From the NCBI GenBank assembly GCA_017390475.1, contig JAFPBO010000051.1, positions 389,897-453,896 on the forward strand: DNA of 64,000 nt, written 5' to 3'. Both the position numbers and the translations under genes were made by a program. The stretch's first letter is position 1. Each line of letters opens with the position of its first letter. Below the pieces are notes generated by a model. That model did no database searches. It was given only the letters and a program-made list of their open reading frames with translations, and was not told where the DNA came from. The DNA is from Loktanella sp. Its GTDB lineage: Bacteria; Pseudomonadota; Alphaproteobacteria; Rhodobacterales; Rhodobacteraceae. Of the stretch, positions 2,532 to 44,922 are shown piece by piece.

Positions 2532-2963
2532 TCAGTTTTCCTTTTGTGCAAAGATGAAACGGGCCGCGACCCGCCGCGCCCAGGGCGCAGACAGCGGGCT
2601 TTCGACCACGCCATGCCCGCTATAGGCATGGATAAAGGCGGGGTTTGCGCCGGTGGCGCTGACCAACCCCAGATGTTTCGCCACCCCGCCTGCGCGCATG
2701 CGGAACAACAGCACCTGGCCGGGCTGGATTGGTCCGGTGGCGGCAGGCATATGGCGCAGCGCGGCCTTCCAGAGCAATTCCGCGCCCTGCGGTTCGGACC
2801 AGTCGCTGGTATAGGCAGGCACCGGTTCCGGCTCTGCCCCATGCAATTCGCGCCACAGGCCGCGCAACAGGCCCAGACAATCGCAGCCCACGCCCTTTGC
2901 CGCGCCCTGATGCAGATAGGGCGTGCCGATCCAACCCCTTGCGGCGCTGATCACGGCGGTCAT
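2532..2963 (-). CDS. GTA gene 14, NlpC/P60-family cell-wall peptidase
   Basis: A 143-residue protein with an NlpC/P60 fold signature: the catalytic cysteine is in GVGCDCLGLLRG (Cys29) and a histidine follows in the PAFIHAYSGHG region. The family matches the putative phage cell-wall peptidase of GTAs. The role is probably local cleavage of peptidoglycan peptides when the particle delivers DNA. It overlaps g13 by 4 bases (ATGA) and is followed directly by g15, as in the Rhodobacter capsulatus cluster. The short length is normal for this GTA family. Confidence 0.93.
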   Translation of the reverse strand: MTAVISAARGWIGTPYLHQGAAKGVGCDCLGLLRGLWRELHGAEPEPVPAYTSDWSEPQGAELLWKAALRHMPAATGPIQPGQVLLFRMRAGGVAKHLGLVSATGANPAFIHAYSGHGVVESPLSAPWARRVAARFIFAQKEN

Positions 2964-3841: not shown

Positions 3842-4467
3842 GGCCGCACCTCGATCACCGGCACATCGGGGGCCTCGCCCGCCTGAAACCGCGACATCGA
3901 CGTGCGGATATGATCGGTGGCAAAACGCACCGGCACGTCGAATTCATAACCTGCGGTGATCTCTGCCCCGAGAGCGGGCGGATCGGCGAAATGCACGACG
4001 CCGGTGGCGGGATCAACGGTGTAATCCAGCCCCGGTGCCATCGGATCGCCGCCACGGGTGATGCGGATCGTCCCGGCCACCGGTTTGGTGATCGGGCGGC
4101 GATAGCTGGTGTCGCCGGACCGATAGGTTTTCACCAGTTGAAAGTCCGTCGTCACCGCGTCACCGATGCCGATCAGCTGATCCGGGATCGTGATATCCTG
4201 CGACGGCAGGCAGGATTTGTAATCGGACCAGTCTTTCCAGCGAAAGCCGATCAACTGGCCCTGCCGCGCCTCGAAAAAGGCGATCAGGGTCGCCAGATCA
4301 TCCAGCGCAGACAGGCCCAGCCCCGCATCATAGCGCCTGCGGCTATGCGCCCAGGGGGTGTTGCGTTCCTCATGCCCATTGGCGAGGCTGACAATCTCTG
4401 TCCGCCGTTCCGGCCCGCCAGTGGCGCCGAATGACAAGGCGGCGGGGAATCTGATTTCGTGAAACAT
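3838..4467 (-). CDS. GTA gene 12, DUF2460 distal tail protein
   Basis: A 209-residue DUF2460 protein (MFHEIRFPAALSFGATGGPE). The family forms the distal tail ring linking tail tube and baseplate in GTAs. Conserved stretches seen include GHEERNTPWAHSRRRYD and GFRWKDWSDYKSC. The start is supported by an AAGGAT ribosome-binding site about 8 bases upstream of the ATG at 4467. It lies 11 bases after g11 and overlaps g13 by 4 bases. Confidence 0.93.
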   Translation of the reverse strand: MFHEIRFPAALSFGATGGPERRTEIVSLANGHEERNTPWAHSRRRYDAGLGLSALDDLATLIAFFEARQGQLIGFRWKDWSDYKSCLPSQDITIPDQLIGIGDAVTTDFQLVKTYRSGDTSYRRPITKPVAGTIRITRGGDPMAPGLDYTVDPATGVVHFADPPALGAEITAGYEFDVPVRFATDHIRTSMSRFQAGEAPDVPVIEVRP

Positions 4468-4478
4468 CGGGGTGATCC

Positions 4479-5135
4479 TTATGAATTGCGCTGGCTGCGC
4501 TGCATCGCGCGGGCCAGCTGGCTGGCGATCTGCGATTGGCTGCGCTGAAAGCCCTGCACATCCGGGGTCGTGATATGCATCGTGACATGCACGGCATTGC
4601 CGCCGCCTTGCACACCCAGCCGCCCGTCCGGGCCGCGCGCCAGCGGCATGATCGCCTCTGGCCCCGCTTCGCCCATCAAGCCGGTGCCGCCGCGCATCGC
4701 GAATGGCGTCGGGCTGGTGACCACGCCGCCCTTGGCAAAGGGCATGACGCGGCCTTGTGAAAACGGCGCACCATCGGCAAGAGGCATCAGGCCCGCGACA
4801 AGGCTGTTAAGGCCCCCGGCCAGCTTGCCGCCGAAATGGTCGGTGACGGGTTTGACTGCCGCGCCGTAAACCGTGCCGGACATCGCCCTGCCGAGGCCGG
4901 CAAAGACATCACTCAGGCTCTTGCCATCCAGCACGAGGCCATCCAGTGCGCGGCGCAGCCCGGTGGAAAAGCCGCTTTCAAGATTGCCCAGATCACGGGT
5001 GGTATCATTCAGCGCGGTCTGGGTGCCGCGCAACTGCCCCTCAAAGGCGGCGGTGACGGCAGAGGCATCGCCAAGGCTGCGTTCCAGCGCGTTGATATCG
5101 CTGTCGAAATCGTCGATACGGTCAAGATCGGACAT
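4479..5135 (-). CDS. GTA gene 11, short tail tape-measure protein
   Basis: A 218-residue protein starting MSDLDRIDDFDSDINALE at 5135, chosen because AAAGGAA precedes it at good spacing; the longer frame upstream has no such site. The N-terminus is probably a coiled coil and the middle is glycine-rich (GGKLAGGLNSLVAGLM), followed by a conserved C-terminal FAKGGVV...GEAGPEAIMPL segment typical of tape-measure proteins. At about 220 residues it is far shorter than phage homologues, consistent with the short GTA tail. It overlaps the end of the preceding small gene by 14 bases. Confidence 0.9.
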   Translation of the reverse strand: MSDLDRIDDFDSDINALERSLGDASAVTAAFEGQLRGTQTALNDTTRDLGNLESGFSTGLRRALDGLVLDGKSLSDVFAGLGRAMSGTVYGAAVKPVTDHFGGKLAGGLNSLVAGLMPLADGAPFSQGRVMPFAKGGVVTSPTPFAMRGGTGLMGEAGPEAIMPLARGPDGRLGVQGGGNAVHVTMHITTPDVQGFQRSQSQIASQLARAMQRSQRNS

Positions 5136-5331
5136 CGGGTGTTTCCTTTGCTTTATCGGGGAAAGCCTGCGCCAAAGCATCCAGCCCGGCGCGGGTCATC
5201 GGGGCGGGCCCGGCCTGCGCGCCCAGCATCACGTGCAGTTCCGCAGGCGTCAGCGCCCAAAAGGTGGCAGGCGGCAGCCGCAGGGTGCAAAGCCCGGCGC
5301 GCAGGAGGCCGGGCCAGTCCAGCCCGGTCAT
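5122..5331 (-). CDS. GTA gene 10.1, small tail assembly chaperone-like protein
   Basis: A 69-residue protein (MTGLDWPGLLRAGLCTLRLP) matching the small DUF2376-type protein lying between g10 and the tape measure in GTA clusters. The motif FWALTPAELHVMLGA is the characteristic part. By position (between tail-tube and tape-measure genes) it should serve as a tail assembly chaperone; this is inferred from phage gene order, not shown by the sequence. It overlaps g10 by 4 bases. Confidence 0.88.
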   Translation of the reverse strand: MTGLDWPGLLRAGLCTLRLPPATFWALTPAELHVMLGAQAGPAPMTRAGLDALAQAFPDKAKETPDVRS

Positions 5332-5642
5332 TGCGGCACCGTGAAGGCGCGCGCCAGCAGCGTGGCCGCCAGCCCTGCCGCGCCGACCGGGCCGCCGGGG
5401 AAATCGACGGCCAGCAGATCATCCGCCTGCCCGCGCCAGCCAGCACCGCGCAGCCCGGCGACGATCACCGCCACCACATCGCGGCTGGAAAACGCCCCGG
5501 TTTCAAACCGCGCCACCAGATCGACCAGCGACCCGGTCTGCAGGGCGGTTTCCAGTTCGGCCAATGCGCCAAGGGTCAGCTTGGCGTGATGCACCGTGTC
5601 GCCGATGGTGACGGCGACTTCACCTGCATAAGGATTGGCCAT
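5328..5642 (-). CDS. GTA gene 10, gene-transfer-agent family tail protein
   Basis: A 104-residue protein beginning MANPYAGEVAVTIGDTVHHA, the hallmark of the small GTA g10 family. The middle contains LTLGALAELETALQTGSLVDL, a typical tail assembly chaperone-like sequence that also occurs in siphophages upstream of the tape measure. The ATG shares one base with the g9 stop codon, and the end overlaps g10.1 by 4 bases, so the set is one translationally coupled string. Confidence 0.9.
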   Translation of the reverse strand: MANPYAGEVAVTIGDTVHHAKLTLGALAELETALQTGSLVDLVARFETGAFSSRDVVAVIVAGLRGAGWRGQADDLLAVDFPGGPVGAAGLAATLLARAFTVPQ

Positions 5643-6055
5643 CAGATCAGCACCGTAAAGGCCAGTGCCCCGGCAGAGGCGAGCGCAATTTCATAGGTCG
5701 CCTCGCCATTATGGCTGCCGGCGTAATCGATGCCGGTGATCTGGAACCGGCCCTGCAAAGTGCCGAAACCGGGGATGATGACCTGAAAATCCGGGGTCAG
5801 CCCGGCAAAGAATATCTGCCGCGCGCGGGCATCGGTGCCCGCATCCTTGAACACGCCAGAACCAGAGATCGCGGCGGTTTTCACCCCGGCCCCGCCCAGC
5901 AATTCGCGCCAGCCGCCGCTGTCGAGATTGGTCACATCGACGGTTTCCGCATTCAGGCTGATCCGCGTGGCGCGCAGGCCTGCGAGCGTTTCAAACTGGC
6001 CATCGCCAGTCATGTCGATCTTGACCAGCAGGTCTTTTCCGTTCTGGGCTGTCAT
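5642..6055 (-). CDS. GTA gene 9, major tail tube protein (TP901-1 family)
   Basis: A 137-residue protein starting MTAQNGKDLLVKIDMTGDGQ at 6055, chosen over an upstream ATG because AAGGAACGAAGCG sits just before it. TP901-1-like tail-tube features are GLRATRISLNAETVDVTNLD and the later ISGSGVFKDAG. Family members stack as hexameric rings to build the tail tube. A 22-base gap separates it from g8 and it abuts g10. Confidence 0.93.
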   Translation of the reverse strand: MTAQNGKDLLVKIDMTGDGQFETLAGLRATRISLNAETVDVTNLDSGGWRELLGGAGVKTAAISGSGVFKDAGTDARARQIFFAGLTPDFQVIIPGFGTLQGRFQITGIDYAGSHNGEATYEIALASAGALAFTVLI

Positions 6056-6077
6056 CGCTTCGTTCCTTATCAAGGGG

Positions 6078-6485
6078 TTAAGTGTCATCGGCCACGCGGG
6101 CGCGAAAGGTCAGGGTAATCCGGCGCGCGCCATCCTTGCGGGCGGCGCGGGCCTTGGAGAAATGCAGGCCGACCAGCGTGCCGCGCGTCAGCGGCAGGGC
6201 TGCGTCAAGCAAGGCGTCGCAGACCGCCGCCGCGGCCTGTTTGGCGGCGGCAAACCCACTGTCCTGACTGTGCAGCGTGATGGTCAGTGCGTGATCGGCA
6301 CCTTGGCCGGTCTGGTCAGAGGCGTCGCGCACCTCTTCGCCGCCCAGCAGCAGGTAAAGTGGCGGCACCGGACCGGCGGGCAGCGCGTCGTAGATCGCAG
6401 TCCCGATCAGCGCGGTCAGCGCGGGATCGGCTGTCAGCCTGCGATAGATCGCGCTTTGCAGGGCGGCGGCGATGGCATAGGTCAT
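6078..6485 (-). CDS. GTA gene 8, DUF3168 tail terminator-like protein
   Basis: A 135-residue DUF3168 protein (MTYAIAAALQSAIYRRLTAD). The family includes tail terminator/tail completion proteins of HK97-like phages, with the typical pattern of LLGGEEVRD followed by a beta-rich C-terminus (ARRITLTFRARVADDT). It overlaps g7 by 4 bases. The exact role in capping the tail tube is inferred from the family. Confidence 0.9.
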   Translation of the reverse strand: MTYAIAAALQSAIYRRLTADPALTALIGTAIYDALPAGPVPPLYLLLGGEEVRDASDQTGQGADHALTITLHSQDSGFAAAKQAAAAVCDALLDAALPLTRGTLVGLHFSKARAARKDGARRITLTFRARVADDT

Positions 6486-6808
6486 GTCGCCACCTGCGCG
6501 GTTGCGGTGCAGGTCAGATACAGGCCCTTGGGGTCGGCATCGGCCACCGCGTCGATCCGGTAGATCTGCGCGCCCTGCCGGAACCTTTGCCCCGGTACGG
6601 GCCGCGATGGCGCGCCATAGGGCGCGGCGCGCAGGGTGATCCGGTAGGTCATCCGTGACAGATTGTCTGCGGCGCGCCCGGTGCCGGGCCGGATCGCGGC
6701 CCAGATCATCCCCATCGGCTGCCAGTCGCTGACAAAGCCACCGGCACCGTCGGGCGATTGCACCTGATGTTCCAGCATAAGGGCGCGGGTCATTTGCGGG
6801 ATGCTCAT
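6482..6808 (-). CDS. GTA gene 7, head-tail adaptor (head closure) protein
   Basis: A 108-residue phage head-tail adaptor-type protein: GAGGFVSDWQPMGMIWAAIR and the RMTYRITLRAAP/GQRFRQGAQIYRID pattern are characteristic. It should form the stopper ring under the portal that joins head and tail. It overlaps g6 and g8 by 4 bases each. Confidence 0.9.
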   Translation of the reverse strand: MSIPQMTRALMLEHQVQSPDGAGGFVSDWQPMGMIWAAIRPGTGRAADNLSRMTYRITLRAAPYGAPSRPVPGQRFRQGAQIYRIDAVADADPKGLYLTCTATAQVAT

Positions 6809-7401
6809 CGCCGTGCCCCCAGCCGCAGCGGCCGATGCGGCGCGACCAGCGCCAGCACCGCCGCCGGGATCACGGCATAGCCGCCGACAGAAAAATCATG
6901 GCGGCTGTCATAATGATGCGCCGCCAGCATCAGGCTGGCCTCGGCCAGATCGGCGGGCAGATCGGCCCAGTCGGGCGCGAAACCGGCGCGCAGCCCGATG
7001 CGGATCGCGCCATGCGGCGGAATCCGTGGCAACAGACCGGCCTTGGCGACCAGTCCGGGGCGCTGGCTGTCTTGCAGCAGATACCAGTGATCGGCATTGG
7101 CGGCGGTTTCGCGGCCATCGGCGGTGATCCTTGTGACATGCAGAATGGCGCTGACCGGGGTCACCGGCAGGATCTGGCGCACCGGATCGCGCCAATGGGT
7201 CACGGTCCAGTTGAAATCGCGGCGGATCAGGATCTTGCCGGTGCGTGCCTCGATCTGCGCCATGGCGGCGCGCAGATGGCGCAGCAACAGCCCGTCCTGA
7301 TCGGCGGCATCGGCAAAACCGCTGGCCAGACGCAGGTATTGTTTCAGCTGGGCCAGTGGCAGGACCAGGTCCTGTATCGGTGTCTGTTCGACTAACATCA
7401 T
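6805..7401 (-). CDS. GTA gene 6, head-tail connector (phiE125 gp8-type)
   Basis: A 198-residue protein starting MMLVEQTPIQDLVLPLAQLK. The ATG at 7401 was chosen because GGAG lies 7 bases upstream; the longer upstream frame has no support. Features of the head-tail connector family include LPLAQLKQYLRL, MAQIEARTGKILIRRDFNWTV and the late PADLAEASLMLAAHHY helix. In the particle it forms the ring below the portal. A 157-base gap with a strong hairpin separates it from the capsid gene upstream. Confidence 0.9.
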   Translation of the reverse strand: MMLVEQTPIQDLVLPLAQLKQYLRLASGFADAADQDGLLLRHLRAAMAQIEARTGKILIRRDFNWTVTHWRDPVRQILPVTPVSAILHVTRITADGRETAANADHWYLLQDSQRPGLVAKAGLLPRIPPHGAIRIGLRAGFAPDWADLPADLAEASLMLAAHHYDSRHDFSVGGYAVIPAAVLALVAPHRPLRLGARR

Positions 7402-7558
7402 GGGATTGCTCCGAAAATTCTGGGGTGGCGCGGACCCGGATACGCCTTGCCGCTCTGCATCTCTCGACGGAAGGTTGGTTGCTGGACCATGCAGCGCGGG
7501 GCGCATCCGGGGGCGGGAGGGCGCGCCTGTGACGGCGCGCCAGCCTATCGCGGCAGCA
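7402..7558 (-). other. Gap between GTA capsid and connector genes with a perfect hairpin
   Basis: This 157-base spacer holds an 8-bp perfect stem, GGCGCGCC (7520-7527), loop TGTGAC, GGCGCGCC (7534-7541), 18 bases after the capsid stop codon on the transcribed strand. There is no run of T after it, so it is not a classical terminator. It could stabilise the 3' end of capsid mRNA or reduce downstream expression so that capsid protein is made in excess; this is inference. Confidence 0.55.
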
Positions 7559-8737
7559 TCAGCTGACCGCGAATTTCAACAATTTGATTGCGGCGAAATC
7601 GCTGACCGCGCCGCCGACGCGTTTGGTGGCATAGAACAGCACATGCGGCTTGGCCGAGAACGGATCGCGCAGCACCCGCAGATCGGGCCGTTCGGCGATG
7701 GTGTAACCCGTGCCGAAATCGCCAAAGGCGATCGGCGTGGCACCATCCGCGATATCGGGCATGTCTTCGGCAATCAGCACCGGATAACCCAGCAACCGCG
7801 CCGGTTCGCCCGCTGCCAGACCGTCGGACCAGAGGAAGCGGCCATCATTGTCTTTCAGCTTGCGAATGGTTCCGGCGGTTTTGGAATTCATCACGAAAGT
7901 GCCATTGGCGCGGTAAGCCGCCCCAAGCGCATAGACCAGATCGACGATGGCATCGCCGCCGTTGATGTCACCGCGCAGGCCGGTCGATACAAAGCCGATA
8001 AAGCCCCATTCGTGGATTTCATTCTCGACCTGCGGATAGGTCAGGATGCCCTTGGGTTTGTCGATACCGTCACCGTTGATGAAAGCCCCCGCCTCTGACC
8101 GGGCGAATTTATCGGCGATGCGGGTGGCAAGCCAGGTTTCGATATCAAAGGCGCTGTCATCCAGCAGCCGCTGCGAGGCCTTCGGCAGGGCAGAAAGTTC
8201 ATGCAGCGGGATGCTGATCCGGTCGATCTGTGGCGTGGCGGTATCGGTGACCGGGCCGGTTTCCGTCGCCCAGCCTGCGCCCATTTCGGAATGATCGACC
8301 AGCAGGTCATAAGAGGTGGCATCGACGCTGACCACGCTGGCGACAGCGCGGATCGAGGCGGTGGCGGACAAGCTGCCCTTGATCACATCGGCGGTCTGCG
8401 GATCGACCAGATAGCCGCCGTCAGCGGCCATGGCGGTGGACATCGCCTTGCCGTCCAGATCCAGCCCGCGCAGGGCATCATCATCGCCAGAGCGCAGATA
8501 GGCGGCAAAGGCTTTCTGATGCGGGGCTTCTTGCGCGGCGGCCATGGCCAGCGCCGGGCGGGCATTCATCAGTGTTTTACGGTCAAGCTTGTTCATGCGT
8601 TCATCCTGTTTTTGCAATTTGGCGTTAAGGTCGGTGGTAAAAGTGGTGAAATCAGCCAGAAATCCGCTGATCTGGGTGGCCAGGTCGGTGCCGGGCATAG
8701 CGTCGCCGGTCCGTGCCTGTGGCGCGGTTGTGGTCAT
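7559..8737 (-). CDS. GTA gene 5, HK97-family major capsid protein
   Basis: A 392-residue HK97-fold major capsid protein. The N-terminal ~60 residues form a predicted coiled coil (FTTDLNAKLQKQDERMNKL) that acts as the delta/scaffolding domain and should be removed by the g4 protease. The rest shows the canonical pattern: MAADGGYLVDPQTADVIKG, the WATETGPVTDTATPQ loop, FINGDGIDKPKGIL and TVAERPDL-like TIAERPDLRVLRDPFS. An AAAGGA site precedes the ATG at 8737. The protein builds the GTA head. Confidence 0.95.
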   Translation of the reverse strand: MTTTAPQARTGDAMPGTDLATQISGFLADFTTFTTDLNAKLQKQDERMNKLDRKTLMNARPALAMAAAQEAPHQKAFAAYLRSGDDDALRGLDLDGKAMSTAMAADGGYLVDPQTADVIKGSLSATASIRAVASVVSVDATSYDLLVDHSEMGAGWATETGPVTDTATPQIDRISIPLHELSALPKASQRLLDDSAFDIETWLATRIADKFARSEAGAFINGDGIDKPKGILTYPQVENEIHEWGFIGFVSTGLRGDINGGDAIVDLVYALGAAYRANGTFVMNSKTAGTIRKLKDNDGRFLWSDGLAAGEPARLLGYPVLIAEDMPDIADGATPIAFGDFGTGYTIAERPDLRVLRDPFSAKPHVLFYATKRVGGAVSDFAAIKLLKFAVS

Positions 8738-8758
8738 GGTCAGGTCCTTTGGTCGGGG

Positions 8759-9289
8759 TTAAAGCGGTGACAACAATCGACGCGCGGCGGCAAAGGCCGC
8801 GGTCAGCTGGCGCAGCTCATCCGCGCCAGCGGTTTCGGCCTTTGCGGCAATGCGCGCATCGGCCAGCATCGGGAAAGTGACCAGAGACACTTCCCACAGA
8901 TCCAGTTCGGTCAGGTGGCGCGCGCCCTGATCATCCTTGCGCGCCCTGATGGTGCGATACCCAATCGACAAACCGTCGATGGCCCCGGCGGCGATCAGCG
9001 ACGCGGCCTCGCGCGCCTTGGCGATATCGGTCAGCAGCCGGCCCTTGACCCAAAGGCCTTTGGCATCCTCGACCACCTCGTCCCAGATACCGATGGGCTG
9101 GGCCGGGTCATGCTGCCAAAGCATCCTGATCCGGCGTCCCTGCGCCAGGCTGGTGTGATAGGCCCCGCGGCTGACGATATCGCCGCCCTGATCGGATTTG
9201 CCGAACAGCGAGGCATAGCCCGAGATCACCTGCCCGTCGGTGACGGTCACGCGGCCCGGTCCGGCGCAATATTTATGTTCGAGTTTCAT
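8759..9289 (-). CDS. GTA gene 4, HK97-family prohead protease
   Basis: A 176-residue U35-type prohead protease starting MKLEHKYCAGPGRV at 9289 with an AGGGGGA ribosome-binding site. Catalytic-type residues are in MLWQHDPAQPIG (His) and GAIDGLSIGYR (Ser). It should trim the scaffolding N-terminus of the capsid protein during head maturation. It overlaps g3.5 by 4 bases and the capsid gene follows 21 bases later, the usual portal-protease-capsid order. Confidence 0.94.
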   Translation of the reverse strand: MKLEHKYCAGPGRVTVTDGQVISGYASLFGKSDQGGDIVSRGAYHTSLAQGRRIRMLWQHDPAQPIGIWDEVVEDAKGLWVKGRLLTDIAKAREAASLIAAGAIDGLSIGYRTIRARKDDQGARHLTELDLWEVSLVTFPMLADARIAAKAETAGADELRQLTAAFAAARRLLSPL

Positions 9290-9492
9290 GGGGTCCCCCT
9301 GCTGAGTGCTTTGACGATTTCGAAAACCAGCAGACCGGCACAGCCGCCGACAATGATCCAGATCTGCCATGCGAGCCGTGCGATGATGTATTCGATCTTG
9401 CCCAGCCGCAGATCGACCTGGGCGAACCAGAAATCAGAGGCCGGGGGCGGTGCGGGCTTTGGCCCACGCAAAGCGATGATCTTAGTGTCCAT
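9286..9492 (-). CDS. GTA gene 3.5, small single-pass membrane/head-formation protein
   Basis: A 68-residue protein starting MDTKIIALRGPKPAP at 9492, inside the end of the portal gene (11-base overlap) and overlapping g4 by 4 bases. The second half (about 42-63) is a hydrophobic segment, LAWQIWIIVGGCAGLLVFEI, so a membrane anchor is predicted. A small protein in this position is a standard part of GTA clusters and has been linked to head formation; the mechanism is unknown. Confidence 0.82.
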   Translation of the reverse strand: MDTKIIALRGPKPAPPPASDFWFAQVDLRLGKIEYIIARLAWQIWIIVGGCAGLLVFEIVKALSRGTP

Positions 9493-10660
9493 GACCGACC
9501 TCCTGCGCGGGCAGGCCCAGCAGGCTGCGTTTTTCGGCATCCGTCAGGAAAGTCGCGGCCCCGACCCGTTGCCAGAGACTGTCGCGTTCCTGCGACAAGG
9601 CGGGGATCTGGTCCTTGTCGGGGCGGATTTCGATCCTTTCACCGGAAAAATCCGACAGCCAGTCGGCAATGACCGAGCTGACCCGCGTGGCCAGCGGCAG
9701 CACGGTCAGCCGGTAAAAGGCGCGGTTGGCTTCCTGATAATTGGCATAGGTGGCGTCGCCCGGAATTCCCAGCAGCATCGGCGGCACGCCAAAGGCGATG
9801 GCGATTTCGCGGGCGGCGGCGGCTTTGGTTTGCTGAAATTCCATATCCGACGGCGAAAAGCCCATCGGTTTCCAGTCCAGCCCGCCTTCGAGCAGCATCG
9901 GGCGGCCCGCGTTGCGCGCGCCCTGATGCTGGGTTTCCATTTCATCGATCAGACGGTGATATTGATCCTGGGTCAGCGCGGATTGGCCATCCGCGCCACG
10001 ATAGATCATCGCCCCCGATGGCCGTGCCGCATTGTCGAGCAGGGCCTTGGACCAGCGCGCGGCGGCGTTATGCACGTCAATCGCGGCAGCGCAGGCCTGC
10101 AGCGCGGAAAAGCCGTAATGATCATCCTGCGGGTGGAACGATTTGACATGGCAGATCGGGCTGTGGTTTTCGGCACAGGCAAAACGGTGTTTGCGCCCGT
10201 CCACGGTATATTCATAACCCGCAGGCCAGCCATCCGGGCCGGGGATCACCGCCATCCGGTCAGACCGCAGCACATGCATTTCGGCAGGCAGGTCGCTGGT
10301 GCCCACCGCCTCCAGATAGCCATTGCCGGTCAGCAGCAGCTGGCCAAAGAGCGATTCCAGCAATTCGGCGCGGCCTTGCGCGGCATTGGGCCGGGCCAGC
10401 AAAGCCTGCACCGGGTGATGATCATAACGCTGGTCATCATCCTGCACGATCAGCGGGATCGCGGCGGCGGCTTCGGCGATCAGTTTCACCGCGCGATAGC
10501 CGATCGGATTGGCCAGAAAGCCGGTCCGGGTCAGCGAGACCACATCGCGCGGCGACCATGCCACCCGGCCTGCGCCCGGCATCGCCATGATCCGCCCGCT
10601 GGCCGAAGCCTTGACCGCAATGGCCGGGGGTTTGGGTTTGCGGTTGAGAAAATCGAACAT
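9482..10660 (-). CDS. GTA gene 3, HK97-family portal protein
   Basis: A 392-residue portal protein: GFLANPIGYRAVKLIAEAAA, the HPVQALLARPNAAQGR segment, TGNGYLEAV, and IAIAFGVPPMLLGIPGDATYANYQEANRAFYR are typical of HK97-type portals. The portal dodecamer is the DNA gateway at the head vertex and the docking site of the terminase. It follows the large terminase gene after an unusual 249-base spacer that contains a long inverted repeat. Confidence 0.95.
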   Translation of the reverse strand: MFDFLNRKPKPPAIAVKASASGRIMAMPGAGRVAWSPRDVVSLTRTGFLANPIGYRAVKLIAEAAAAIPLIVQDDDQRYDHHPVQALLARPNAAQGRAELLESLFGQLLLTGNGYLEAVGTSDLPAEMHVLRSDRMAVIPGPDGWPAGYEYTVDGRKHRFACAENHSPICHVKSFHPQDDHYGFSALQACAAAIDVHNAAARWSKALLDNAARPSGAMIYRGADGQSALTQDQYHRLIDEMETQHQGARNAGRPMLLEGGLDWKPMGFSPSDMEFQQTKAAAAREIAIAFGVPPMLLGIPGDATYANYQEANRAFYRLTVLPLATRVSSVIADWLSDFSGERIEIRPDKDQIPALSQERDSLWQRVGAATFLTDAEKRSLLGLPAQEVGHGH

Positions 10661-10909
10661 TGTCTACTCCTTGGTCGGGATCTGATGATCCTTGCGTCTT
10701 GAAACCAATTTATCCGGCAGGGATGAGAAAGTGCTTACCGGTGCGTACGGTGCCCGGCGCAACACCCTGTGGCGGGGACGGGTCGGCGCCTCCGGCGGGA
10801 GTATTTGGAGAAATAAGAAACACGGCGGCTGCCTTGTGCTGGCCCGGCTTCTTATTTCAAAAAATACTCCCGCGCGGCGCGCCCGAACATCCTGCAGGGA
10901 TGTGACGGA
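10661..10909 (-). repeat. Spacer between GTA terminase and portal genes with long inverted repeat
   Basis: No gene is seen in these 249 bases. The notable element is an inverted repeat at about 10795-10880: a left arm GCGGGAGTATTT..GAAATAAGAA and a right arm that is its near-exact reverse complement (two-base indel/mismatch region in the middle), with a loop of about 35 bases. The arms resemble the dispersed AAATATCCC..GCCGGAGG element also seen at about 35800 and 56010. It may be a pair of inserted repeats and may act as an attenuator between terminase and structural genes. Confidence 0.7.
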
Positions 10910-12253
10910 TCACAGGCTCCGGATCTGCGGATTGCGCCATCGGGCGGCGGGATCGATCATCAGATCCTGCAAGGCCCAGACCAGCGCATCGACCTGGTCG
11001 GGGGACCCGACACCCTCATAGCCGGCCGGAGTCATCTGGCACATCTGGTCTTCGAGATCGCCCAGGCCGCGCAGATGCCTGACCCGGCCCTGTTCATACA
11101 GCGCCGCAACAGGTTCGGCGCGTGCGACCTTGCCCTTGGTGGCATGGACCGCGCGGAACGGCACCAGCGGGTCGATCTGGCGGATCACCGCCTCCACCAT
11201 ATCGCCGCCCTGATTGACCTCGGCGACCAGCCGGTCGGCACCATGCCGCTGCATCGCCGCAACCGCCGCGCGCGCCCAGATCGCGGGGCTGGCCCCCTGC
11301 ACCGAGGCATCCTCGATCACATAGGCGCGCCAGTCCTGCACCGGGCCTGCCATCACCACGCCCGCGACGATGATGCCGCAGGCATCCGATCCGGCATGGG
11401 ATGTGGTCGGCGGATCGACAGCAACGACGATCCGGGTCAGGGATGGCAGCGCATCGATCTGGCAGGTCGCGAATTGGGCGCGCTGCCAGAGCGCGCCTTC
11501 GACATCGTCAAGCAATTCGCCCTCCAATTCCTGCCGCCCCAGCGCCGTGCCGGCATATTGCGCCGTGACCTCCGCCAGAAAGCTGTCGGCCAGATTGGCA
11601 CGGTTGGCGCTGGTCGGCGCATGGGTTGTCACCGTGCTGTCCCGCGCGAGCAGATCGCGCAGCATGCCCGACCGCTGCGGTGTCGTCGTCACGCAGACCT
11701 GTGGGTGATCACCCAGCCGCAGGGCAAATTGCAGCATCGTCCAGGTCTTGTCCGCCTTGCGCCATTTCGCCAGTTCATCGACCCAGGCAGCGTCGAATTG
11801 CGGCCCACGCAGGGCCTCTGGTTCCTGCGCGGAAAACAGCATCGCCTGCGCCCCGTTGCGCCATTGCAAAAGCTTGCGGCTGGCAATCCATTGCGGCCGG
11901 TTGTCGGGCGGGGCGATGGCCATGATGCCGCTGTCGCCGAAGACCATCACTTCGCGCCCCTGATCGAAGGTTTCGCCGATCACCGCCACCCGCCGGGCGC
12001 GGCCGGGGGCCAGCGGGCTGGACCCTTCGACCATGCTGCGCAGCCATTCGGCGCCTGCGCGGGTCTTGCCCGCACCCCGCCCGCCCAGAATGACCCAGGC
12101 CCGCCAGTTGCCCGGCGGCGGCAGTTGATGCGGCATGGCCCAGAAGGCGAAAAGATAGGGCAAGGCCGCCGTCTCAGCCCGCGTCAGGCTGGTCAGGAAG
12201 GCCTGCTGCTGCTGCGGTGTCGCGCAGGCGATCAAGTTTGCGCCCAAGTTCAT
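10910..12253 (-). CDS. GTA gene 2, large terminase subunit
   Basis: A 447-residue DNA-packaging ATPase/nuclease. The Walker A motif is GGRGAGKTRAGAEW, followed by a Walker-B-like FDAAWVDELAKW segment and a C-terminal nuclease half (IVVAVDPPTTSHAGSDACGI, with acidic Asp). GTA terminases package random ~4-kb pieces of host DNA by a headful mechanism. The start is uncertain: ATG 12253 (MNLGANLIA) is used here; another in-frame start at 12307 gives 465 residues. Either way it overlaps g1 by 80 bases or more, and no clear ribosome-binding site decides. Confidence 0.92.
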   Translation of the reverse strand: MNLGANLIACATPQQQQAFLTSLTRAETAALPYLFAFWAMPHQLPPPGNWRAWVILGGRGAGKTRAGAEWLRSMVEGSSPLAPGRARRVAVIGETFDQGREVMVFGDSGIMAIAPPDNRPQWIASRKLLQWRNGAQAMLFSAQEPEALRGPQFDAAWVDELAKWRKADKTWTMLQFALRLGDHPQVCVTTTPQRSGMLRDLLARDSTVTTHAPTSANRANLADSFLAEVTAQYAGTALGRQELEGELLDDVEGALWQRAQFATCQIDALPSLTRIVVAVDPPTTSHAGSDACGIIVAGVVMAGPVQDWRAYVIEDASVQGASPAIWARAAVAAMQRHGADRLVAEVNQGGDMVEAVIRQIDPLVPFRAVHATKGKVARAEPVAALYEQGRVRHLRGLGDLEDQMCQMTPAGYEGVGSPDQVDALVWALQDLMIDPAARWRNPQIRSL

Positions 12254-12524
12254 CGCGGATCGCGTCAAGGTCGGCAAGATGGGCGGGGTCAGTGGATTGT
12301 GCGACATTGAATGCCTCCTCTGCGGTCAGCACCTTGAGATGCGCCGCGATCAATTGGTCCATACGGGTGATGACAGCGCGCGGGGTTTCCTCTGACAGAT
12401 CGTCAGCGGCCCGCAGGCTGTGGTCGAGCAGCGCACGGATGCGCCCGAACAGATGGGTGATTTCAGCAACCCGGTCGTGGGCCTTGGCCAGCACAGCGGG
12501 ATCATGGGTTGGGGGGATGTTCAT
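12174..12524 (-). CDS. GTA gene 1, small terminase subunit
   Basis: A 116-residue, mostly helical protein starting MNIPPTHDPAVLAKAHDRVA at 12524. Helix-turn-coiled features (HLFGRIRALLDHSLRAADDL, LDAIRDELGRKLDRLRDTA) fit the GTA small terminase (TerS). In GTAs this subunit binds DNA without sequence preference. Its C-terminal part overlaps the start of the large terminase gene. The frame continues upstream to 12674 but that part lacks a ribosome-binding site and looks like non-coding translation. Confidence 0.85.
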   Translation of the reverse strand: MNIPPTHDPAVLAKAHDRVAEITHLFGRIRALLDHSLRAADDLSEETPRAVITRMDQLIAAHLKVLTAEEAFNVAQSTDPAHLADLDAIRDELGRKLDRLRDTAAAAGLPDQPDAG

Positions 12525-39900: not shown

Positions 39901-39994
39901 ATCAACATCCTTGTTCTTGGGTTGAGGCCGCGCCCCTTCCCTTTTATGACGCAAAGGCAATCTGCTGCCCAGACCCATCAAAAAGGTGCCTCTC

Positions 39995-41302
39995 ATGATC
40001 CCACGTTATTCCCGCCCCGAAATGACCGATATCTGGGAGCCTGCCACCAAGTTCCGCATCTGGTACGAGATCGAGGCGCATGCCTGCGACGCGCAGGCCG
40101 CGATTGGCGTGATCCCGGCGGAAAATGCGGCGGCGGTGTGGAAAGCCAAGGATGTGGCCTTTGACGTGGCGCGGATTGATGAGATCGAGGCGGTGACCAA
40201 ACATGACGTCATCGCCTTTCTGACCCATCTGGCCGAGATCATCGGGCAGGATACTGCCCGGTTTGTCCACCAAGGGATGACATCATCGGATGTGCTGGAC
40301 ACGACGTTCAACGTGCAATTGGTGCGCGCGAGCGATCTGCTGCTCGCAGGTATGGACCGCGTGCTGGCGGCGCTGAAAACCCGCGCGCTGGAACATAAGG
40401 ACACCGTGCGGATCGGGCGCAGCCATGGCATTCACGCAGAACCGACGACAATGGGTCTGACCTTTGCCCGGTTCTATGCCGAAATGGACCGGAACCGCGC
40501 CCGTCTGGTCAATGCGCGGGCCGAGATTGCGACGGGTGCCATTTCCGGGGCTGTCGGGACCTTCGCCAATATCGATCCTTCGGTCGAGGAACATGTCTGC
40601 GCGCAGCTGGGCCTGACACCGGAACCGATCAGCACGCAGGTGATCCCGCGCGACCGGCATGCGATGTTCTTTGCCACTTTGGGTGTGATCGCATCCAGCA
40701 TTGAAAACATCGCCATCGAGATCCGCCATATGCAGCGCACCGAAGTGCTGGAGGCAGAGGAATTCTTTTCCGCCGGGCAAAAGGGCAGTTCCGCCATGCC
40801 GCATAAACGCAACCCGGTGCTGACCGAAAACCTGACCGGGCTGGCGCGGCTGGTGCGGATGTCGGTGGTGCCTGCGATGGAAAACGTGGCCCTGTGGCAT
40901 GAGCGCGATATCAGCCATTCATCTGTCGAACGCGCCATCGGGCCGGATACGACGATCACGCTGGATTTCGCGCTGCACCGGCTGGCGGGGGTGATCGAAA
41001 AACTGGTGATCTATCCCGAAAACATGCTGGCCAATATGAATAAATTCCGGGGGCTGGTGATGTCGCAACGGGTACTTTTGGCGCTGACGCAGGCCGGGGT
41101 GAACCGCGAAGATGCCTATAAAATGGTGCAGCGCAATGCGATGCGGGTCTGGGAACAGGGGGCCGATTTCAAGACCGAGCTGCTCGCCGATGCCGATGTG
41201 CTGGCTGCGCTGACACCCGCCGAGATCGAAGAGAAATTCGACCTCGGGTATCATGTGAAACATGTCGATACGATTTTCGCGCGGGTGTTCGGCGCGACGT
41301 AA
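39995..41302 (+). CDS. purB: Adenylosuccinate lyase
   Basis: A 435-residue fumarase-superfamily lyase: MIPRYSRPEMTDIWEP start, TSSDVLDT, and the signature GSSAMPHKRNPVLTEN. It acts twice in purine synthesis (SAICAR and adenylosuccinate cleavage). ATG 39995 has AAAAGG eight bases upstream; a GTG three codons earlier has none. Confidence 0.97.
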   Translation: MIPRYSRPEMTDIWEPATKFRIWYEIEAHACDAQAAIGVIPAENAAAVWKAKDVAFDVARIDEIEAVTKHDVIAFLTHLAEIIGQDTARFVHQGMTSSDVLDTTFNVQLVRASDLLLAGMDRVLAALKTRALEHKDTVRIGRSHGIHAEPTTMGLTFARFYAEMDRNRARLVNARAEIATGAISGAVGTFANIDPSVEEHVCAQLGLTPEPISTQVIPRDRHAMFFATLGVIASSIENIAIEIRHMQRTEVLEAEEFFSAGQKGSSAMPHKRNPVLTENLTGLARLVRMSVVPAMENVALWHERDISHSSVERAIGPDTTITLDFALHRLAGVIEKLVIYPENMLANMNKFRGLVMSQRVLLALTQAGVNREDAYKMVQRNAMRVWEQGADFKTELLADADVLAALTPAEIEEKFDLGYHVKHVDTIFARVFGAT

Positions 41303-41312
41303 GGCAGGGTCT

Positions 41313-41339
41313 ACATCCGGGCGGGACCACGCCCGGATA
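41313..41339. terminator. Palindrome between purB and luxI, possible bidirectional terminator
   Basis: ATCCGGGCG-GGACCA-CGCCCGGAT, a perfect 9-bp stem between the convergent purB and luxI-type genes. There is no long T-run, so function is uncertain. Confidence 0.5.
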
Positions 41340-41356
41340 TCCAGGCAGGCGCGGTT

Positions 41357-42034
41357 TCAGTGCGGTGAAGCCGCGTAAGTGGGCTGTGACTGCGGCGTGG
41401 TCCGGTCATGATCTGCGGATGTGGCCGCCTGTGTCAGTGATGAGCGCGACTGCTGGCCCACGGGCATGCTCAGCACGACATAGCGGCGTCCATCCTCGGC
41501 ATTGACATAGGGTTCGCCGATCATCCGTGGCGCGTAACCGAATTTACGCAGGGTGCGCATCAGTGACGGTGGGCTGAGCGACATCAGATCGGTTGCATTC
41601 TGGGCAACGGCCTGTTCGACAAGACCGTCGACAATCAGTTCCAGACAGCGCGCGCTGGCAGCCTGATCCTTGATCTCCGACGACACAACCAGACGGGTGC
41701 ATTCCCAGATATTCGCGGTGACAAAAGCTTCTGGCACCACCGATGCGGGAATGCCGATGATCTTACCCTCGATTGCATCGCGCAACATATAAGTATGTGA
41801 TCCCCAGCGGGCGGTTGTGGCCATGGCCCGACCCCCGCCGATCACCTTGCCGTCGCGCAGCACCAGCGAATAATAGGCTTGCGGGTTGTCGTATTGATCC
41901 ATCTCCACATCATCGTCATGCGGGATGTCCCAACCCAGCTGGTCGACAAAAACTTGCTTGCGCAAGGCAAGATATTCGAAAAACGCAGTGCCATGTTTGT
42001 GCAATTGCGTCAGATTGAACGTGATCTTTTCCAT
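41357..42034 (-). CDS. Acyl-homoserine-lactone synthase (LuxI family)
   Basis: A 225-residue LuxI-type synthase. All core residues of the family appear: Arg25, Phe29, Trp35 (ALRKQVFVDQLGW), Asp46 and Asp49 (EMDQYDNPQAYY), Arg69 (GGGRAMATTARWG), Glu111 and Arg114 (IWECTRLVVSSE). It makes AHL signal from SAM and an acyl donor. A ~30-residue polar tail (QSRSSLTQAATSADHDRTT) extends the C-terminus. It lies 122 bases after the luxR-type gene on the same strand, a standard quorum-sensing pair. Confidence 0.95.
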   Translation of the reverse strand: MEKITFNLTQLHKHGTAFFEYLALRKQVFVDQLGWDIPHDDDVEMDQYDNPQAYYSLVLRDGKVIGGGRAMATTARWGSHTYMLRDAIEGKIIGIPASVVPEAFVTANIWECTRLVVSSEIKDQAASARCLELIVDGLVEQAVAQNATDLMSLSPPSLMRTLRKFGYAPRMIGEPYVNAEDGRRYVVLSMPVGQQSRSSLTQAATSADHDRTTPQSQPTYAASPH

Positions 42035-42065
42035 AGGTCCCTCATTTGCCAGGCGATATTGCGGT

Positions 42066-42095
42066 CAGGCTTGCATCTCTGGATTGCAAAGCCTG
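42066..42095. promoter_or_regulatory. Inverted repeat between luxR and luxI genes
   Basis: CAGGCTTGCA-TCTCTGGAT-TGCAAAGCCTG: arms match except for one extra base. It lies in the 122-base gap upstream of luxI. It could be an operator of the LuxR-type protein (lux-box-like dyad, though longer than the usual 20 bases) or an RNA hairpin between the two genes. Confidence 0.5.
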
Positions 42096-42156
42096 CCTCA
42101 CATTAACGATTTATCGCGAATTTTAGGTATATAAGAGGGAAAAAATCGACAAAGTG

Positions 42157-42765
42157 TCAGATTAAACCATATTGATTTGCCAAGGCCGCTGCCTGAGTGC
42201 CGGTTTTCGCACCAAGTTTGAGCTTGGCATTCTTTAGTCGCTGCTTGACCGCGCCTTCGCTGACGCCCAGGTCATGCGCAATTTCCTTGAGCCGCTTGCC
42301 GTCCTTGACCATGCGCAATGCTTCTAGTTCGGCGCGGGTCAGGTTGGTGGGCGGCGCCGTTTCGCCATGACGTCGCGTCAGGAAAGCATGCAGCAATTTG
42401 ATTTCCAGATCACTGAATTCCCGGTCCGGACGGGTAAAGCTGCCAAAGGATCGTTGCGCGCCACTGCCGCTGTCCATCACCGACACTGTGACGCCAAACC
42501 GCAGGCCAAAGCTGCGCGCCTGCAGAATGACCCGTTTGGGGTCCTCTTGTTCCAGCTCGCTCCACCGGCAGGCACCGGTATTGCCATAGGCCCAGCGAAC
42601 CGCCGGATCGAACAACATAAACCTTTGTTTAGTATAGTGATCTACCCAATCCGCAGGCAATGCATTGGCTTCTTCCATGGGGAAGGCAAAGCCGATGCGC
42701 AACGCAATGTAATATCCGGACGGCGCAAGTTGCGCGATATCGTCCGGCCCCAATAATGCACACAT
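42157..42765 (-). CDS. LuxR-family quorum-sensing regulator
   Basis: A 202-residue regulator. The autoinducer-binding domain (about 1-130) has the conserved pocket residues Trp40, Tyr44 (DWVDHYTKQRF), Asp53, Pro54 (FDPAVRW) and Trp68 (CRWSE). The LuxR helix-turn-helix occupies about 142-202 (LTRAELEALRMVKDGKRLKE, LGVSEGAVKQRLKNAKLKL). It is shorter at the N-terminus than the usual 230-250 residues. It should bind the AHL made by the adjacent synthase and control target promoters. Confidence 0.93.
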   Translation of the reverse strand: MCALLGPDDIAQLAPSGYYIALRIGFAFPMEEANALPADWVDHYTKQRFMLFDPAVRWAYGNTGACRWSELEQEDPKRVILQARSFGLRFGVTVSVMDSGSGAQRSFGSFTRPDREFSDLEIKLLHAFLTRRHGETAPPTNLTRAELEALRMVKDGKRLKEIAHDLGVSEGAVKQRLKNAKLKLGAKTGTQAAALANQYGLI

Positions 42766-42903
42766 AAAAATCCCTCTGACCTCGCCGCTGCGACAAAGGT
42801 CTTGTTGTAGCTCAATTGTTACCTATACACTGGGGACACTCAACGGCGTTGCTTTATTATCGCCAGTTTAGACAAGTTAGCAACCAGAAAGCGAGTTCGC
42901 AAT

Positions 42904-43392
42904 ATGACTGGCACGGGGTTTGACCTCAGTAAGACACTTGGGGAATTCAAACTGCGCGCGGCCTCTGGCTATGCGATGGGTCTGCATATCAATTTCACCA
43001 CACCGGCATATTTTTTCCAAAGCTATCCCCGTGCCTGGCTGGATCATTATTCACAGGCCGGGCTGTTGATGAGAGATCCGACGGTATCCTGGTGTTTTGA
43101 AAATACCGGATTTTGCCGTTGGTCCGACATGGATGATCCGGCGGGCGTTTTAACGCAGGCCGCTGAATTTGGCATGAGATACGGCATTTCCTATGCAACC
43201 AATCTGTCCGGCAGTCACAGCATGGCCGGTTTTGCCCGGCCCGACCGTGAATATACAGATTCGGAAATCGCGGAACTGACTGAATTATTTGACATCCTGC
43301 ATGAGGCGACGCGCCAGCAGGCCTCGCTGCCGGCAGCGACGGTCGAGCAATTGAAAAAGATGTCGATCATCGTCACCCATCCGGGATCGTAA
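42904..43392 (+). CDS. LuxR-like autoinducer-binding protein without DNA-binding domain
   Basis: A 162-residue protein made of a LuxR autoinducer-binding domain only. Pocket residues are kept with canonical spacing: Trp45, Tyr49 (AWLDHYS), Asp58, Pro59 (MRDPTVSW), Trp73 (CRWSD), and the FARPDREYTDSEI segment is nearly the same as FTRPDREFSDLEI of the neighbouring LuxR, so the two are paralogues. The C-terminus (LPAATVEQLKKMSIIVTHPG) resembles the first bit of the HTH domain (LTRAELEALRMVKDG) and then ends; no HTH continues downstream in any frame. Divergent from luxR. It may act as an anti-activator by heterodimerising, or as a ligand sink. Confidence 0.88.
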   Translation: MTGTGFDLSKTLGEFKLRAASGYAMGLHINFTTPAYFFQSYPRAWLDHYSQAGLLMRDPTVSWCFENTGFCRWSDMDDPAGVLTQAAEFGMRYGISYATNLSGSHSMAGFARPDREYTDSEIAELTELFDILHEATRQQASLPAATVEQLKKMSIIVTHPGS

Positions 43393-43427
43393 CGGATTTT
43401 TCACCCCTGACATGGTAATCTGCGGGC

Positions 43428-44468
43428 ATGAGCTTCATGTCCGACCTTCCCGATGCCACGCTGACCCGTCGCCGCAAGGCCGCGATTGTGGTGCAGATGC
43501 TGATCGCCGATGGTGGCAGCCTGCCGTTATCCTCTCTGCCCGAATCATTGCAGGAAACCCTGACTGCGGAACTGGCGGCGCTGCGCCTGCTGGACCGCGC
43601 CACGATGGATGCGGTGGCGGCAGAATTTGCCGGTGAACTCGACCGGATCGGCATGGCGGCACCCGGCAGCCGGGATGCGGCGATAACCGCGCTGGCCGAT
43701 CATCTGAGCCCGGATCTGGCACAACGTTTGCAGGCGCAACGCGCCGCCGTGCGCGACGGCGATCATTGGCCTGTGCTGGCCGATCTTCCGGTGGACCGGC
43801 TGGCGCAGATCATGCAGGCCGAAAGCGTCGAAATCGGCGCTGTGGCGCTTTCCAAATTGCCGGTCACCAAAGCGGCAGAGGTGCTGGCAAAAACCCCCGG
43901 CGACCGCGCCCGCCGGATCACCTATGCCATGTCACTGACCGCCGCGATCGCCCCGGCCATGGTGCAGCGGATCGGCCGTGCGCTGGCACAGGATTACGGC
44001 AGCGACCGCCCGGTTGCCTTTGACAAAGCCCCGGCACAACGGCTGGGCGCGATCCTGATGTCCACGCCGCAGGACACGCGCGACGATCTGCTGAACGGGC
44101 TGGGCGCACAGGATGAAGATTTCGCCAGCGACCTGCGCCGGGCGATCTTTACCTTCAAGGATATAGCGACAAGGGTGAAACCCGCCGATATCGCCAATTG
44201 CCTGCGCGCAGTGGATGCCCCGGTGTTGAGCACCGCGCTGGCCGCAGCGCTGGCCGGGGATGCCGCGCTGGCGGCGGCGGCGGAACATATCCTTGACAAT
44301 ATCTCGCAACGGATGGCCGCGCAGATGCGCGACGATGCCCGCGACCGCGGCGCGGTGAAAAAGACCGATGGCGAGGCTGCGATGGCCACCGTCAGCGCCG
44401 CAGTGCGGGATCTGGTTGACAGCGGGGCGATCACCCTGCGCGACATGGATGCAGAGGGTGAGGCATGA
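43428..44468 (+). CDS. FliG-like flagellar motor switch protein (divergent)
   Basis: A 346-residue FliG-family protein. The N-terminal RRRKAAIVVQMLIADGGSLP resembles FliG domain 1; middle DLPVDRLAQIMQAESVEIGA, SKLPVTKAAEVLAKTPGDRA resembles the middle domain; the C-terminus has LRRAIFTFKDIATRVKPADI, HILDNISQRMAAQMRDDARD and VRDLVDSGAITLRD, matching the torque domain. The charged DDR-type cluster after FxDI in typical FliG is replaced by VKPAD, and the EHPQ motif is not evident. No other flagellar gene is in this window. It may be the sole FliG of this lineage or a non-motor paralogue. Start is ATG 43428 or 43437. Confidence 0.75.
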   Translation: MSFMSDLPDATLTRRRKAAIVVQMLIADGGSLPLSSLPESLQETLTAELAALRLLDRATMDAVAAEFAGELDRIGMAAPGSRDAAITALADHLSPDLAQRLQAQRAAVRDGDHWPVLADLPVDRLAQIMQAESVEIGAVALSKLPVTKAAEVLAKTPGDRARRITYAMSLTAAIAPAMVQRIGRALAQDYGSDRPVAFDKAPAQRLGAILMSTPQDTRDDLLNGLGAQDEDFASDLRRAIFTFKDIATRVKPADIANCLRAVDAPVLSTALAAALAGDAALAAAAEHILDNISQRMAAQMRDDARDRGAVKKTDGEAAMATVSAAVRDLVDSGAITLRDMDAEGEA

Positions 44469-44922
44469 CCGCTGCGACAACCTGCCCGAAGGGGGAGTGT
44501 CACGGCGGATAAGGACTGGCTACGCCTGTCGAGCTGGCTGGTCGGCAGATGCGGCGGGCCTGCGGCAGGCGCGACAGGCCTATGGGGCGGGCGCGGGTTG
44601 CGCATTCTTCGCCCGATGCATCACCGGTAGGGTGGGTCAGGACCCACCTTACCTGCCCGATTGCCAGGTCAGCCCATGCCGTCAGGGTGCAATATCGGCG
44701 ACGACCTGTGGCAGAACAGTCTTGCCACCTGCGATTTCCGCCAAGGCACTGTCGTAGGGTGGGTCAGAACCCACCCCGTCCGAGCCCCCGACCCAACATC
44801 GCCGCGCCCCACCTATCCGGTCACTGCCGTATTCGCGTGGACACAGGCCGCGGTTGCGCTTAATCCTGCGCCATGACCCAAGCCCATGCCCCCCTTGGTC
44901 TGACCCGGCATCCGGACAGCCC
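44469..44922. other. Repeat-containing spacer without a supported gene
   Basis: About 450 bases between the FliG-like and acyltransferase genes. Two palindromic GTAGGGTGGGTCA..ACCCACC copies (44627-44652 and 44754-44776) are present. The open frames here have repeat-derived or unlikely composition; a 15-codon ATG frame overlapping the FliG-like stop is too short to support. Confidence 0.65.
44627..44776. repeat. Two GTAGGGTGGGTC palindromes
   Basis: GTAGGGTGGGTCAGGACCCACC (44627 onward, followed by TTAC) and GTAGGGTGGGTCAGAACCCACC (44754 onward), same orientation, 127 bases apart. They are sister forms of the GTAGGTCGGGG family seen elsewhere in the window. Confidence 0.75.

Follow-up and report, generated by a model that had tools for sequence, protein, structure and literature searches.

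An autoinducer-binding protein without a DNA-binding domain, encoded divergently from luxR-luxI in Loktanella, is a probable CerN orthologue of a family-wide module

Introduction

The closest described relative of the system analysed here is CerN of Cereibacter sphaeroides, a protein with an autoinducer-binding domain (Autoind_bind) and no HTH that, together with AHL, binds the LuxR-type protein CerM and weakens its hold on DNA, as reported from pull-down with AHL, EMSA, an E. coli reporter and mutants (PMC11655674, 2024). According to that report CerM needs no AHL for DNA binding and reduces ctrA and motility by an indirect route, loss of CerN resembles loss of the synthase, and swimming is partly regained in a cerI cerN double mutant (PMC11655674). 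The same paper describes a weakening of CerM-DNA binding in vitro by AHL alone and a fall in the CerM level without CerN; it also records that CerM has Phe at the position of the first pocket Trp, a change that its authors hypothesize to matter for a lower AHL affinity (PMC11655674). TraR of Agrobacterium is reported to need AHL for DNA binding (PMC11655674, PMC13043044).

Two surveys have described a locus of the kind considered here. Topology D of Cude and Buchan (2013, PMC3824088) has fliG opposite luxRI and adenylosuccinate lyase in six genomes, each listed with two luxR loci and none then investigated for quorum sensing, and Subramoni (2015, PMC4338825) placed an 'abd, autoinducer binding domain protein' between fliG and luxR in a group 4 from Rubellimicrobium and Loktanella. 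We analysed such a locus in a 64,000-nucleotide stretch of a Loktanella sp. genome (contig JAFPBO010000051.1, positions 389,897 to 453,896), hereafter the window.

Results

An autoinducer-binding protein that ends after a segment resembling the first helix of an HTH

The genome (4.13 Mb, 99.99% complete) carries in the window the gene order purB (+), luxI (-), luxR (-), P0001 (+) and fliG homologue (+), with the following features:

39986..41302, + strand, purB, adenylosuccinate lyase, a flank typical of the published topology D
41357..42034, - strand, P0003, LuxI-type AHL synthase of 225 aa (Pfam)
42157..42765, - strand, P0002, full-length LuxR partner of 202 aa with Autoind_bind and GerE, putative CerM orthologue (Pfam and trees)
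42766..42903, no strand, intergenic region of 138 bp common to the divergent P0001 and P0002 (sequence)
42880..42895, + strand, conserved 16-bp element GCAACCNNAAAGCGAG shortly before the start of P0001, overlapping the -35-like hexamer of a luxR-strand promoter match
42904..43392, + strand, P0001, HTH-less autoinducer-binding protein of 162 aa with an ATG start, putative CerN orthologue (Pfam and trees)
43333..43389, + strand, C-terminal tail of P0001, residues 144-162, a first-HTH-helix-like segment followed by MSIIVTHPG (alignment, model and codon changes)
43428..44468, + strand, P0004, FliG homologue on the same strand as P0001, its first ATG 35 bp beyond the P0001 stop, sole FliG_C match in the genome

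In a Pfam search of P0001 and its neighbours in which matches were accepted up to E 1, Autoind_bind was the sole match in P0001 (59.5 bits; cut-off 23), and GerE, the C-terminal HTH by which LuxR transcription factors are recognised, gave none at that threshold. Inspection by eye of the three forward frames as far as 43700 likewise showed no HTH downstream, and a prior reading of the DNA made without database searches (the sequence-only reading), which had taken 42904..43392 to encode an HTH-less autoinducer-binding protein divergent from luxR-luxI, is thereby confirmed. Rfam gave no match within 41300-44600.

P0001 and P0002 share 38% identity over 138 residues (E 1e-32) and have the motifs CRWS and F.RPDRE..D.EI in common, as the sequence-only reading had noted. 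Also as claimed there, P0001 has the AHL-pocket residues W45, Y49, D58, P59 and W73, to which we add G94 (W57, Y61, D70, P71, W85 and G113 of TraR, respectively); the pairing of G113 with G94 rather than G90 is a choice made from an alignment without a TraR row, and G90 is kept as well, in 93 of 96 HTH-less proteins. The complete WYDPWG pocket occurs in 92 of these 96 proteins, and all six residues are present in 85 of 91 partner LuxRs. The first pocket Trp is kept in P0002 and in 90 of the 91 partners, so that the Trp-to-Phe change of CerM cannot be the general basis of such pairs. The structure predicted for P0001 (mean pLDDT 89.4, pTM 0.85) is that of a LuxR ligand-binding domain.

The end of P0001 lies not ahead of the first HTH helix, as had been proposed, but beyond a segment resembling that helix: residues 142-151 align with the beginning of the HTH of P0002 (GerE of P0002 from residue 141), residues 144-152 form a helix in the predicted structure, and it is all of the HTH beyond this segment that is absent. 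Beyond T136 the 96 HTH-less proteins have a median of 26 residues (6 to 43), as against 66 (65 to 68) in the 91 partners. The helix is followed by a tail with the genus consensus MSI.VTHPG, kept in most relatives and common rather than universal (S154 in 77 of 96; 'TH' within the final 14 residues in 65 of 96; no tail in L164 and L165). Between near pairs of the genus, codon changes in the tail fall mostly at third positions (0.478, compared with 0.093 for first and 0.047 for second positions), so that the tail is under constraint.

The FliG homologue of the locus is an orphan, FliM and FlhA having no match in the same genome (FliM was searched for in this genome only). FlhA is missing from 20 of 56 genomes of the genus, and among these 20 FliG_C scored above the cut-off in 17, weakly in one and not at all in two; fliG is thus kept in genomes where other flagellar genes are missing.

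The gene is conserved, under purifying selection and found across the family

The genus of the window comprises at least 56 genomes, of which 36 were searched for P0001; it was matched in 35, its own genome counted, the exception being a genome that is 84% complete. In the first scan, of 60 genomes in all, none of the 24 from other families matched. Loci were read for 32 of the 35 matches, and the protein was HTH-less in all 32. Nine relatives named from genome contigs belong to Loktanella, Yoonia, uncultured Rhodobacteraceae or Alphaproteobacteria. The HTH-less genes are under purifying selection, with dN/dS of 0.018-0.139 in 13 pairs (15 were listed, and two were dropped as their locus was absent from the set); the values are rough in the 7 of 13 pairs with dS above 1.5, and dS was saturated in 3 of the 13 partner pairs.

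A family sample of 394 genomes, nearly one per genus, gave 186 with a match to P0001 or its profile, a count that includes full-length LuxRs. The best-match loci contained 96 HTH-less genes from 95 genomes (32 of them of the window's genus), in addition to one in G069 and a second one in G424; the locus table from which they come had 97 rows, one of which was removed because it represented the neighbouring LuxR, truncated to 100 aa where locus L028 ends. The HTH-less gene, orthologues of which the sequence-only reading had suggested seeking beside luxRI in other Rhodobacterales, is present in at least 66 of the 394 family genomes (G069, two from the window's genus and 63 from other genera). 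In a class sample 2 of 385 genomes matched at 1e-25, both of the window's genus; the same sample contained at least three further genomes of the family, which gave no such match.

Linkage to a divergent LuxR is nearly constant: one lies beside 91 of the 96 HTH-less genes in the stretch examined, and LuxI is found there in 85 of the 97 table rows. The five exceptions are L028, in which the divergent LuxR is cut at the locus end, L148, L149 and L151, in which the LuxR is on the same strand, and L159, which has no LuxR in the stretch. In another locus set, in which some genomes are counted twice, the pair was divergent in 67 of 67 loci, with LuxI in 64 and fliG in 59 within the stretch. What had been a report from one species thus becomes an old, family-wide module, nearly always beside luxR and mostly with luxI.

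Two genomes have two separate HTH-less/LuxR loci each (L044 and L182 in G424; L058 and L091 in G065). L148, L149 and L151 form a subgroup (100% in the 141-row tree described below) with the HTH-less gene and luxR on the same strand and a Trp at the pocket position G94, and L148 also has Leu in place of W73; the ligand of this subgroup is perhaps another one.

P0001 and P0002 group with the putative CerN and CerM

We infer from gene order, sizes and pocket residues that locus L166 of genome G110 carries the CerN gene. The order in G110 is HTH-less (-), LuxR (+), LuxR (+), LuxI (+); the HTH-less protein scores 65.6 bits, against 66.1 given for CerN in PMC11655674, and its pocket (WYDPWG) and that of the adjoining LuxR (FYDPWG) match Table 2 of that paper. 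P0001 and CerN are 33% identical.

In a 76-row tree of ligand-binding domains, 31 HTH-less proteins, including P0001 and the CerN gene product, lie on one side of a branch with support of 100/98, and 31 partner LuxRs, including P0002 and CerM, are grouped at 100/100, apart from 10 GtaR-type rows; the bootstrap of this tree was not fully settled (0.957), L156 had long branches and the 10 GtaR rows did not form one group. In a quick tree of 141 rows (10 of the 32 genus genomes and every second locus of L043-L070), a 98% branch splits 62 HTH-less and 4 outgroup rows from 58 partners and 17 GtaR rows; the 58 partners are joined at 100%, and no branch sets the HTH-less rows apart from the outgroup. 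L184, whose best domain match was a short stray stretch, L071, a repeat of L166, and L073, which was removed by the row filter, were dropped. AU tests rejected a clade of P0001 with P0002 (p-AU 6e-6) and one of CerN with CerM (p-AU 4e-4); a third constraint, in which CerN and CerM were grouped with their nearest relatives, was rejected less firmly (p 0.011).

Because the trees and the AU tests separate the HTH-less proteins from the partners, the HTH was most simply lost once, before the sampled genera parted, and P0001/P0002 are, as judged from these sequences, orthologous to CerN/CerM, an assignment that depends on G110 being Cereibacter sphaeroides. P0001 had been called a paralogue of the adjacent LuxR; as a local duplicate it is not, since a clade of the two is rejected and the split is older than the sampled genera.

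Three other assignments were tried and rejected. P0002 is not an orthologue of GtaR, lying as it does inside the 100/100 partner clade and apart from the GtaR-type rows. Dshi_4067 ('luxB', PMC4046655) was rejected as an orthologue too, since the ORF on the matching plasmid of a putative D. shibae genome (L168) reaches only 20.5 bits. Nor is P0001 a recent truncation of the TrlR type: such a protein would be nearly identical to its full-length target, and P0001 is 38% identical to P0002, with which it forms no clade.

In L166 (G110) and L161 (G162) the genes next after the CerM-type LuxR encode another LuxR and a LuxI, both of them distant (the LuxI proteins score 53.5 and 43.2 bits with the LuxI profile), an arrangement that looks like replacement of the original synthase.

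A conserved element upstream of the HTH-less gene

Intergenic regions were measured in 65 of 67 loci, 61 of them distinct. They are 135-141 bp long in the loci of the genus, with the exception of 424 bp in L033, and in 33 of 34 distinct genus regions a block with the sequence GCAACCNNAAAGCGAG ends 6-9 bp before the HTH-less start. The element is exact in 27 of the 34 regions and has at most two mismatches in 31; the corresponding numbers in other genera are 7 and 11 of 27, as against about 0.05 in shuffles. It may serve as a site of autoregulation, form part of the region in which the HTH-less mRNA starts, or combine the two roles. The luxR-strand promoter match that it overlaps is a pattern match and not proof of a promoter.

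A regulon of the GCAACC-AAAGCGAG element was not seen genome-wide, where the exact element occurs once and 28 sites in all have at most two mismatches, as against 19 for a backward control. The element agrees with the published CerM site at 10 of 15 letters, a likeness that 109 of 500 shuffles attain as well, and for the printed CerM motif 193 of 500 do so. A stricter LuxR-strand promoter pattern was found in 4 of 60 loci, with 0.43 expected, and is not general as formulated.

The GTA-like cluster in the window

The sequence-only reading had connected P0001, through quorum sensing, with a GTA cluster some 29 kb away. A cluster of phage-type genes for head and tail (those for terminase, portal, prohead protease, capsid, adaptor and tail) does lie at about 2960-12307, approximately 30 kb from P0001 and GTA- or prophage-like in kind, so that the distance was rightly given; the link to P0001 is unsupported. 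The conserved element occurs near these genes no more than by chance (in the window there are two matches with 3 mismatches, at 13997 and 58341, and the chance mean for all is 6.7). A GtaR-type LuxR was not seen in the genome, in which the family profile matches only P0001 and P0002; a third protein with Autoind_bind, at no more than 32 bits, is distant from GtaR.

Divergence of the HTH-less protein and of LuxI

Pairwise protein distances were compared among 48 and 77 of the 94 loci, those having all the proteins needed, after two repeats had been dropped; the loci are not independent. In the 48 loci with all four proteins, the partial correlation between HTH-less and LuxI distances, allowing for LuxR and FliG, was 0.47, that between LuxR and LuxI -0.06 and that between HTH-less and LuxR 0.33. 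In the test with 77 loci the values for LuxI were 0.37 (HTH-less) and 0.13 (LuxR), and the 5-95% range of their difference touches 0. By ranks, and with the window as the only member of its genus (n = 21), they were 0.48 and -0.16, an order kept in 200 of 200 subsamples; sets of three proteins gave 0.33 and 0.14 (n = 77) and 0.37 and 0.06 (n = 50), with the order kept in 190 and 195 of 200 subsamples, respectively. These distances are an indirect hint that it is the HTH-less protein that senses the LuxI signal.

Discussion

By analogy with CerN and CerM, P0001 is probably an AHL-dependent anti-LuxR that works with P0002 as a split receptor, P0001 mainly sensing the signal and P0002 binding DNA. 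P0001 would bind the AHL made by the adjacent LuxI; thus loaded, it would bind the divergent P0002 and lower its hold on DNA, a step established only for CerN/CerM, and as the signal accumulates the genes held by P0002 would change state. An HTH-less, ligand-binding LuxR acting on a full LuxR is what the sequence-only reading had envisaged, and this is the nature reported for the putative orthologue CerN (PMC11655674). The direction of the effect is taken from the same pair. Because loss of CerN resembles loss of the synthase in C. sphaeroides, P0001 would by analogy be an inducer arm, turning the quorum response on instead of acting as a brake. The direction is made less certain by the findings on CerM itself, whose DNA binding was weakened in vitro by AHL alone and whose level fell without CerN, and by the partial return of swimming in the cerI cerN double mutant (PMC11655674); the low identity of P0001 to CerN also speaks against the analogy.

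A brake, as the sequence-only reading had it, would require that P0002, like TraR, needs AHL to bind DNA and to activate, and that P0001 forms inactive heterodimers with it and so raises the quorum threshold. TrlR provides the precedent (PMC11655674, PMC13043044), and the full pocket of P0002, including the Trp lost by CerM, is in keeping with it, as are the complete pockets of most partners: with this Trp, P0002 may bind AHL itself and, unlike CerM, may need it for DNA binding. However, in CerN/CerM, the sole orthologous pair studied, the effect is the opposite, CerM binding DNA without AHL and CerN with AHL relieving its effect (PMC11655674), and TrlR is 88% identical to TraR (PMC11655674), whereas the families of P0001 and P0002 split long ago; we therefore regard a brake of the TrlR kind as unlikely, though still worth keeping in view. 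An intact pocket would also suit a signal buffer, P0001 acting as a sink for AHL without touching a partner, but the nearly fixed divergent pairing with one LuxR clade, the constrained tail beyond the pocket domain and the AHL-dependent binding of CerN to CerM (PMC11655674) make this very improbable. Almost no credence can be given to a decaying or mis-sequenced LuxR copy, which would explain the missing HTH as a broken gene or, as the sequence-only reading had allowed, as a frameshift or sequencing error, given that no forward frame holds an HTH, that 35 of 36 genus genomes match, that dN/dS is well below 1 with mostly third-position changes in the tail, and that the HTH-less proteins are one group in the 76-row tree and are kept across genera.

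More tentatively, and with somewhat greater odds of being wrong than right, we propose that in one of the widespread LuxR/LuxI cassettes of the Rhodobacteraceae sensing and DNA binding are split between two subunits, that the HTH-less protein is the AHL receptor proper, that the split has been kept since the origin of the cassette, and that the LuxR is tied only loosely to the LuxI signal; the HTH-less protein is put forward as the main sensor because its divergence tracks that of LuxI better than the divergence of LuxR does. If the family-wide module works as proposed here, predictions drawn for these bacteria from the presence of luxRI may be mistaken about the sign of the effect or about the sensor.

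Proteins of the CerN kind and the type of locus are already known; as far as the literature was searched, the orthology with CerN/CerM, the spread through the family, the C-terminal tail, the promoter block and the comparison of pockets are new, and we found no open-licence PubMed Central paper that joins topology D or 'abd' loci to CerN. Topology D is the same locus type as that of the window, and its descriptions in PMC3824088 list luxR loci without mention of a missing HTH; so is group 4, in which the 'abd' gene is named in the account of PMC4338825 without a function. GtaR and LuxR1 of R. capsulatus and D. shibae, for which a link between quorum sensing and GTA is established (PMC11655674), belong to a LuxR branch related to P0002. 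TrlR of Agrobacterium resembles P0001 in being a LuxR-type protein without a DNA-binding domain, and blocks a full LuxR, TraR, through heterodimers (PMC11655674, PMC13043044); it differs in its near-identity to its target (PMC11655674), P0001 being of old origin and distant from P0002. The likeness is greatest to CerN/CerM, where an HTH-less AHL-domain protein with a WYDPWG pocket, the probable orthologue of P0001, is encoded beside and divergently from a full LuxR in the putative C. sphaeroides genome. The two loci differ in that P0002 lies directly before luxI, with fliG behind P0001, whereas the next genes in C. sphaeroides are cerR and cerI, and in that CerM has a pocket Phe where P0002 has Trp.
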